A DNA stretch of 64,000 bases from assembly GCF_000507245.1 (NCBI RefSeq), contig NC_023035.1, positions 385,001-449,000 on the forward strand. Reading direction: 5' to 3'. The notes beneath the pieces are model-generated. The model searched no databases and was not told the DNA's origin. It was given only the letters and a program-made list of their open reading frames with translations. The position numbers and the translations under genes were made by a program. This document shows positions 4,990 to 5,160 of the stretch, piece after piece; within the stretch, counting starts at the first letter, position 1, and each line of letters starts with the position of its first letter. The DNA is from Salinispira pacifica (GTDB lineage Bacteria > Spirochaetota > Spirochaetia > DSM-27196 > Salinispiraceae).

Positions 4990-5160
4990 GGTGTTTGCAG
5001 AGCAAACACCGAAGGAAACGAGGACGTGCAACGTCCGAGTGGAGTCGTCGCCTATGCGTCCAGAGGAACCTCGAGCGAAGTCCCGAAGGGACTTTGCGGA
5101 ATTGAGCGGACTTCGAAGAAGTCCGGGAGAAGGCTTTTTTATATTTAAATAGCCACAGCA
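4990..5160 (+). repeat. Hairpin array with tight loops, including 90-bp dispersed repeat copy 1
   Basis: At least four strong stems lie in 140 bp. They are a perfect 9-bp stem with AGA loop at 4990-5010, a 6-bp stem at 5022-5036, a 10-bp stem (one G-T pair) with GAA loop at 5075-5097, and a perfect 8-bp stem with GAA loop at 5107-5125. The array ends in a T-run and in the same T/A-rich tract plus GCCACAGC that follows the 5S gene. Positions 5048-5136 recur at 42632-42724 with about two substitutions. No open frame with coding character is present. Confidence 0.75.

Follow-up and report, generated by a model that had tools for sequence, protein, structure and literature searches.

The window analyzed here is a 64,000-nucleotide stretch of the genome of Salinispira pacifica L21-RPul-D2 (CP006939.1), which comprises 3,782,798 bp in a single contig and carries two rRNA operons (PMC4511686); the window corresponds to positions 385001 to 449000 of that contig (G000:C1). 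It begins inside a 23S rRNA gene, which is followed by a 5S rRNA gene and a terminator-like hairpin (Table 1). The right arm of this hairpin is interrupted by an IS66-family element of 2,553 bp, which fills the gap between the 5S hairpin and a block of further stems and is flanked by an 8-bp target duplication, ATTAAATA, at 2387-2394 and 4948-4955, i.e., within the 5S terminator hairpin. The uninterrupted counterpart of the insertion site was found in the second rRNA operon (locus L009), where the hairpin is intact (L009 6473-6527) and its 26-nt arms are 85% complementary. A second IS66-family element, which is damaged and has its transposase gene in two frames, follows the block; the end given for it in Table 1 is that of the last transposase-like frame, since its far terminus was not found, and a search for its target duplication found none. 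IS66 elements thus occupy the 5S terminator hairpins in the window operon, and an IS66-like sequence also lies after the 5S tail in genome G050 (L065), as if such tails were preferred targets.

The original prediction described the block as an array of four strong stems with the loops AGA, GCA, GAA, and GAA, and these are indeed present behind the 5S gene at 4990-5124, as GGTGTTTGC-AGA-GCAAACACC, GGACGT-GCA-ACGTCC, GCGAAGTCCC-GAA-GGGACTTTGC, and GGACTTC-GAA-GAAGTCC, respectively. The RNA fold of positions 4960-5200 has an energy of -92.2 kcal/mol versus a shuffle mean of -67.2 (standard deviation, 4.65; z, -5.4), and none of 200 shuffles reached it, indicating that the structure exceeds chance. 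A 9-bp stem, missing from that prediction, encloses both stem 1 and stem 2 and is formed by GGCGACGAC (4973-4981) and GTCGTCGCC (5044-5052); these parts make up a three-way junction that we call module A, with the two arms inside the closing stem, and stems 3 and 4 are the arms of module B. At its start, module A carries CCTGGCGACGACC, which is exactly reverse-complementary to the 3' end of 5S: positions 4970-4982 are 100% complementary to the 5S end at 2335-2347 over 13 nt. Hereafter, X denotes a copy of the 3' end of whichever RNA gene lies upstream, and X' denotes the reverse complement of that end.

In the window operon, and only there, the two modules are fused at a common CGCC, and this fusion has shortened the X of module A to 9 nt. 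After module B, 34 nt consisting of AGGC and the terminator are repeated, and this copy of the terminator hairpin is cut by the second IS66 element. The T-run that was thought to close the block exists (5135-5140) but belongs to the left arm of the copied 5S terminator hairpin. Similarly, a stem with a GAA loop at 2367-2383, which had been taken for a further unit of the array, is real but turns out to be the apex of the 26-nt-armed 5S terminator-like hairpin. The recurring GAA loop and regular stem size that were proposed as hallmarks had to be abandoned, as the arms in relatives bear many different loops; what defines the modules is that they hold both a copy and a reverse complement of the 3' end of 5S and that a terminator is interposed.

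An array free of such interruptions follows the second operon, where the order is 5S, terminator, module A, terminator, module B, module B. The first of these terminators is a 26-nt-armed hairpin that begins with a U-run, and the one between modules A and B is a perfect 25-bp hairpin holding a U5 run, so that terminators are interposed between modules. The stretch at window positions 4961-5052, which includes module A, is identical in the two operons. The 13-nt X' of module A is present in the second operon, where the module ends with an 18-nt copy, GTCGTCGCCAGGCTTTTT, made up of 13 nt of 5S and the U-run. The copy of module B that lies away from rRNA genes, elsewhere in the window, adjoins the end of an IS66-type transposase gene.

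Table 1. Features of the 5S-linked array in the window and of related arrays elsewhere in the S. pacifica genome (window coordinates unless prefixed by G000:C1)
Feature	Position	Strand	Basis or remarks
5S rRNA gene	2234-2348	+	Rfam RF00001, 102.5 bits; the 3' end, GTCGTCGCCAGGC, recurs as a copy in the modules
5S terminator-like hairpin (left arm, GAA apex, part of right arm)	2348-2394	+	Right arm cut by IS66
IS66-family element	2395-4947	+	Ends GTAAGCC.../...GGCTTAC; Pfam TnpB_IS66 and DDE_Tnp_IS66
Module A	4970-5052	+	X' CCTGGCGACGAC, two hairpin arms, closing strand GTCGTCGCC; inverted repeat with 5S end, fold
Module A, arm 1	4990-5010	+	AGA loop; sequence, fold
Module A, arm 2	5022-5036	+	GCA loop; sequence, fold
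Module B	5053-5134	+	Two GAA-loop hairpins, 5075-5097 and 5108-5124; other genome copies
Partial second 5S-type terminator hairpin, left part	5131-5164	+	Contains T-run; 97% identical to 2345-2378
Second IS66-family element, damaged	5165-6756	-	Transposase gene split between two frames, each piece matching Pfam DDE_Tnp_IS66
Module B, further copy	42632-42726 (G000:C1 427632-427726)	+	98% identical
Intact array after second operon	G000:C1 1218510-1218890		
Module B, further copies	G000:C1 1218666-1218740, 1218796-1218890		Both after second operon
R1 tandem arrays 1 to 4	G000:C1 2259351-2260223, 3216615-3217505, 1553929-1555207, 1331938-1332251		After tRNA genes
R1 tandem arrays 5 to 7	G000:C1 737203-737814, 2691321-2691912, 3575547-3575872		After tRNA genes

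Two hairpin families were observed along the way. One is dispersed and has the form GTACCGCAG-stem-CGAGGAAC, in which the internal loops are conserved and the stems vary; it is found in several spirochetes, apparently also inside transposase genes; its sites include 42595-42621 of the window (reverse strand) and G000:C1 718326, 738147, 1110935, 1166371, 2448427, and 2691237. The other, GGATGCATGG(G/C)CGAGCAG-stem-CGACCAG, is sometimes tandem and occurs at 8470-8600 of the window, where it adjoins an IS110-type transposase gene, as well as at L119 and L123.

As to the wider distribution, the suggestion that the block is a structured RNA or a modular repeat family, rather than random intergenic DNA, is upheld by the recurrence of the modules in the genome and of the layout after 5S genes in several spirochete families. 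The X'/X layout follows 5S, with 5S ends in relatives taken from Rfam coordinates, in genomes G002, G007 (three operons), G010, G016, G026, and G071, and there are weaker traces of it in further relatives. The modules of relatives differ in arm sequence and length, with hairpin arms at the same position. Outcomes were obtained for two of the checks put forward with the original prediction. Whether the array follows all rRNA operons can be answered in the affirmative for S. pacifica (two of two) and G007 (three of three), but elsewhere its distribution is patchy and many relatives have no array after 5S. Covariation across spirochetes was found in the tRNA-linked counterparts described below; the small number and high variability of the 5S modules stood in the way of a good alignment, and MAFFT misaligned them. 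A scan of named genomes with a two-gap pattern retrieved Alkalispirochaeta alkalica (two contigs) and an uncultured Spirochaeta (L110) with a full 5S array, together with 15 matches in other phyla that may be due to chance. Rfam searches of the window and related loci, at both gathering and permissive thresholds, recovered 23S, 5S, tRNA, and, at an unrelated locus, one ALIL, all other matches being below threshold. A CheW-like gene lies downstream of the rRNA operon tail in many spirochete families, a conserved neighborhood as judged by eye from the sequence (L009 at about 9260, L069 at about 405, L077, L091, L049, and L057).

Dispersed copies of one arm hairpin pointed to tRNA genes as the sites of counterparts. 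We found that 7 of the 42 tRNA genes of S. pacifica have an exact 14- to 18-nt copy of their 3' end downstream, and that an X', the reverse complement of the T arm, lies between the gene and this copy in each case; on the 5' side of tRNA genes, such repeats arise only from neighboring tRNA genes. An alignment of 12 of these tRNA-linked elements showed compensated changes in 18 of 26 pairs, and a covariance model built in this work from the elements, R1, has 28 copies in S. pacifica, those listed all falling within the seven tRNA arrays of Table 1. R1 matches were recovered in 51 of 100 relatives and, in a draw across the phylum, in 48 of 296 genomes, including three from beyond the class. At 49 of 56 inspected R1 loci a called tRNA lies directly upstream on the same strand, the other seven being at contig ends (four) or having a tRNA 3' fragment only (three). 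The gap between the tRNA and the first copy of the element is 25 to 80 nt, and it is about one unit longer where the copy seen is the second of a tandem; among 48 first copies, the gap holds a U-run in 44 and a hairpin below -8 kcal/mol in 47. With respect to the origin of X' in the tRNA elements, we rejected snap-back replication, since X' does not include the complement of the acceptor strand beside the terminator; reverse transcription of mature tRNA is also unlikely, as the copies stop at base 73 and lack CCA in those cases where the gene does not encode it.

Among the 59 distinct sequences of the R1 alignment, 89.8% of cells pair, and 581 cells are double changes, versus 176 in shuffled and 58 to 94 in slid controls; as the alignment was fitted to the model, these counts lean toward it. 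Nevertheless, the P2 helix (columns 19-22/79-82), which lies outside the model, still covaries in four pairs. On this comparative evidence, the tRNA-linked elements form one covarying family with a predicted structure. Outside the closing stem P1, G-U pairs outnumber C-A pairs by 35 to 10, a ratio that is indicative only because the sequences are related; it points to the tRNA-sense strand as the one that folds. R1 did not detect the window or the 5S arrays (best E value, 0.58), and hence what the 5S modules and the tRNA-linked elements have in common is only the layout. The closing strands are CCTGGCGACGAC/GTCGTCGCC in module A and GGANTYGAA/..TCC in the tRNA elements; the 5S modules, too, have an X'..X closing stem with the 5S-end copy behind a U-run terminator.

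The closest precedent for this layout is the class of tRNA-linked repeats (TLRs) of Escherichia coli (Egan and Landy 1978; Rudd 1999; described in PMC8144298), which comprises 22 sequences at ten tRNA or rRNA loci, each ending in 18 to 19 bp that match the 3' terminus of the RNA gene lying upstream (PMC8144298). TLRs had been known since 1978 but were without a known function before the work on RrA, RrB, and RrF (PMC8144298), which are read-through products from between the two terminators of E. coli rrn operons and bind Hfq and CsrA (PMC8144298, Stenum et al. 2021). The S. pacifica modules are located 3' of the RNA gene on the same strand, directly so in the second operon and with only an IS66 element between in the window, and in the second operon module A ends in a 3'-terminal copy of the gene end that has the length typical of TLRs. 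Judged by sequence comparison, the X'/X/terminator layout and its recurrence after both 5S and tRNA genes in spirochetes are well established. On the basis of this TLR anatomy and recurrence, we favor, with moderate confidence, the interpretation that the block is a TLR-type array that lies at the tail of an rRNA operon and would give rise to a read-through RNA where it is intact. Each unit would consist of X', the hairpin arms, and X, followed by a U-run and a terminator hairpin. By analogy with RrA, RrB, and RrF, RNA polymerase may occasionally pass the first terminator, and a structured RNA might then be freed by the 5S-maturing nuclease upon recognition of the X copy. The pairing of X' with X probably closes each module on itself and keeps the extra X from invading 5S. 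The intact array after the second operon is the predicted source of such an RNA; the first IS66 element cuts the window array off from the rRNA promoter, and the window copy is therefore probably silent.

We also considered the possibility that the units are nonautonomous mobile cassettes of about 180 bp integrating at the 3' ends of RNA genes, which we regard as unlikely. Such cassettes would bring a replacement 3' end and a terminator, keeping the target gene intact; their arrays would grow by accretion at the 17- to 18-bp repeats, and their fold would serve single-strand recombination, as in integron attC sites. The direct repeats of 17 to 18 bp, which span T-loop C56 to base 73 without CCA, are indeed integrase-type sequences, and tandem arrays reach seven units. 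The tRNA side lends the proposal tangible support: in genus g60 (L275-L304), the end of tRNA-Met is, depending on the species, empty, occupied by an element, or taken up by an island that opens with a gene resembling, by eye, that of a tyrosine integrase. The cores of different tRNAs within one genome can be closest relatives, a sign that cores move between tRNAs, and at L222, L264, and L268 elements lie behind a tRNA 3' fragment only, reminiscent of an attR or distal attachment site. However, we identified no recombinase linked to the elements, and neither blastn searches of plasmids nor exact-motif searches of viral contigs produced matches. Further, the Pro-GGG/CGG elements of four families are mutual closest relatives (0.75 to 0.97 identity), a kinship that suggests vertical descent, and the above-noted excess of G-U over C-A pairs favors an RNA of the tRNA strand. 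Still less probable, in our view, is the full version of this proposal, in which tRNA and 5S repeats alike would be site-specific cassettes moving as a folded single strand in an integron-like manner, with RNA gene 3' ends as their attachment sites and the E. coli TLRs as a fossil form.

Terminator hairpins do alternate with modules, and modules fuse, truncate, and nest; these observations, along with the inclusion among the arms of the dispersed hairpin GTACCGCAG..CGAGGAAC (nine genome copies versus one in the control), would agree with an array of ordinary serial terminators and decaying palindromic repeats, in which the stems do no more than reinforce termination behind the rRNA operon and the modules are REP-like debris yielding no RNA product. 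We nonetheless give this account a low probability, because termination alone leaves the 3'-end copies, the reverse complements, and the covarying fold of the tRNA counterparts unexplained. A different role for the RNA, namely, a sponge that uses its GGA loops to titrate CsrA at a pace set by rRNA and tRNA synthesis, seems very improbable, even though GGA lies in the apical loop of P2b in nearly all of 57 tRNA-linked sequences, often as CAGGAUG, Rfam returned sub-threshold matches to PrrB/RsmZ and CsrB, and RrB of E. coli is bound by CsrA through GGA motifs (PMC8144298). GGA is missing from the apical loops of the window's 5S modules, CGA is as common as GGA in the P3 loop, and the tRNA-linked TLRs of E. 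coli are not predicted to bind CsrA (PMC8144298). At the level of motifs, the sponge would thus fit the GGA loops of the tRNA elements but not the loops in the window.

If the reading as a TLR-type array is correct, spirochetes as a group possess, downstream of tRNA genes, an extensive and strongly conserved counterpart to the E. coli TLR class. Searches of the open-access PMC literature, made under names other than that of the E. coli class, yielded no report of such repeats in spirochetes. The family is absent from Rfam 15, for which R1 supplies the missing covariance model. With many tRNA species, one fold, and dozens of compensated pairs, the spirochete set offers comparative material on the role and spread of TLRs, and the species with empty, filled, and island-occupied sites help in asking how the repeats spread.

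Comparison with known systems shows several partial parallels. Like integron attC sites and REP/RAYT elements, the spirochete repeats are imperfect palindromes that form tandem arrays and conserve fold more than sequence. They differ from attC sites in that, by reading, their closing strands have no RYYYAAC/GTTRRRY core and their ends vary with the host RNA gene. Mobilization of REP elements by RAYT was rejected, as no Y1 transposase (PF01797) was found in S. pacifica with a search that gave matches in control genomes. The resemblance to the E. coli TLRs is closer, extending to the position directly behind a tRNA or rRNA gene, the 3'-end copy of 18 to 19 bp, and the presence of one to several units per locus; the spirochete elements belong to another phylum, and those linked to tRNA genes have a single strongly covarying fold, R1, and an X'/X closing stem. 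The 5S modules, unlike the R1 elements, have their own variable arms. With RtT RNA (RF00391) of the tyrT operon, the elements share the layout of X and X' and the X'/X closing stem; they differ in that a U-run hairpin precedes each unit in most of the spirochete elements. In strain MG1655, X and X' recur at a regular 178-nt spacing after tRNA-Tyr: X copies stand at +159, +337, and +515 from tyrV and X' copies at +59, +237, and +415. RF00391 itself had no match in 2050-5300 of the window (E ≤ 5), in the tRNA elements (E ≤ 1), or in the intact 5S arrays (E ≤ 10). Conversely, with filters off, the best four R1 matches in 6 kb of E. coli sequence, which were weak but in the right places, were three RtT copies (E values of 0.0025, 0.0026, and 0.015) and the rrnB repeat (0.052). 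At the rrnB locus of MG1655, an X copy of 18 nt lies between T1 and T2, and X' is lacking; hence, as far as the sequences indicate, RtT has the same layout as the spirochete units and rrnB has X and terminators only. RrA, RrB, and RrF (of rrnA, rrnB, and rrnD, between T1 and T2) are distinguished further by GGA loops, which the window modules lack, but these operons run from 5S through a terminator to a structured repeat, which ends with the copied 3' end of 5S, and then to another terminator, in the order seen at the second rRNA operon of S. pacifica.
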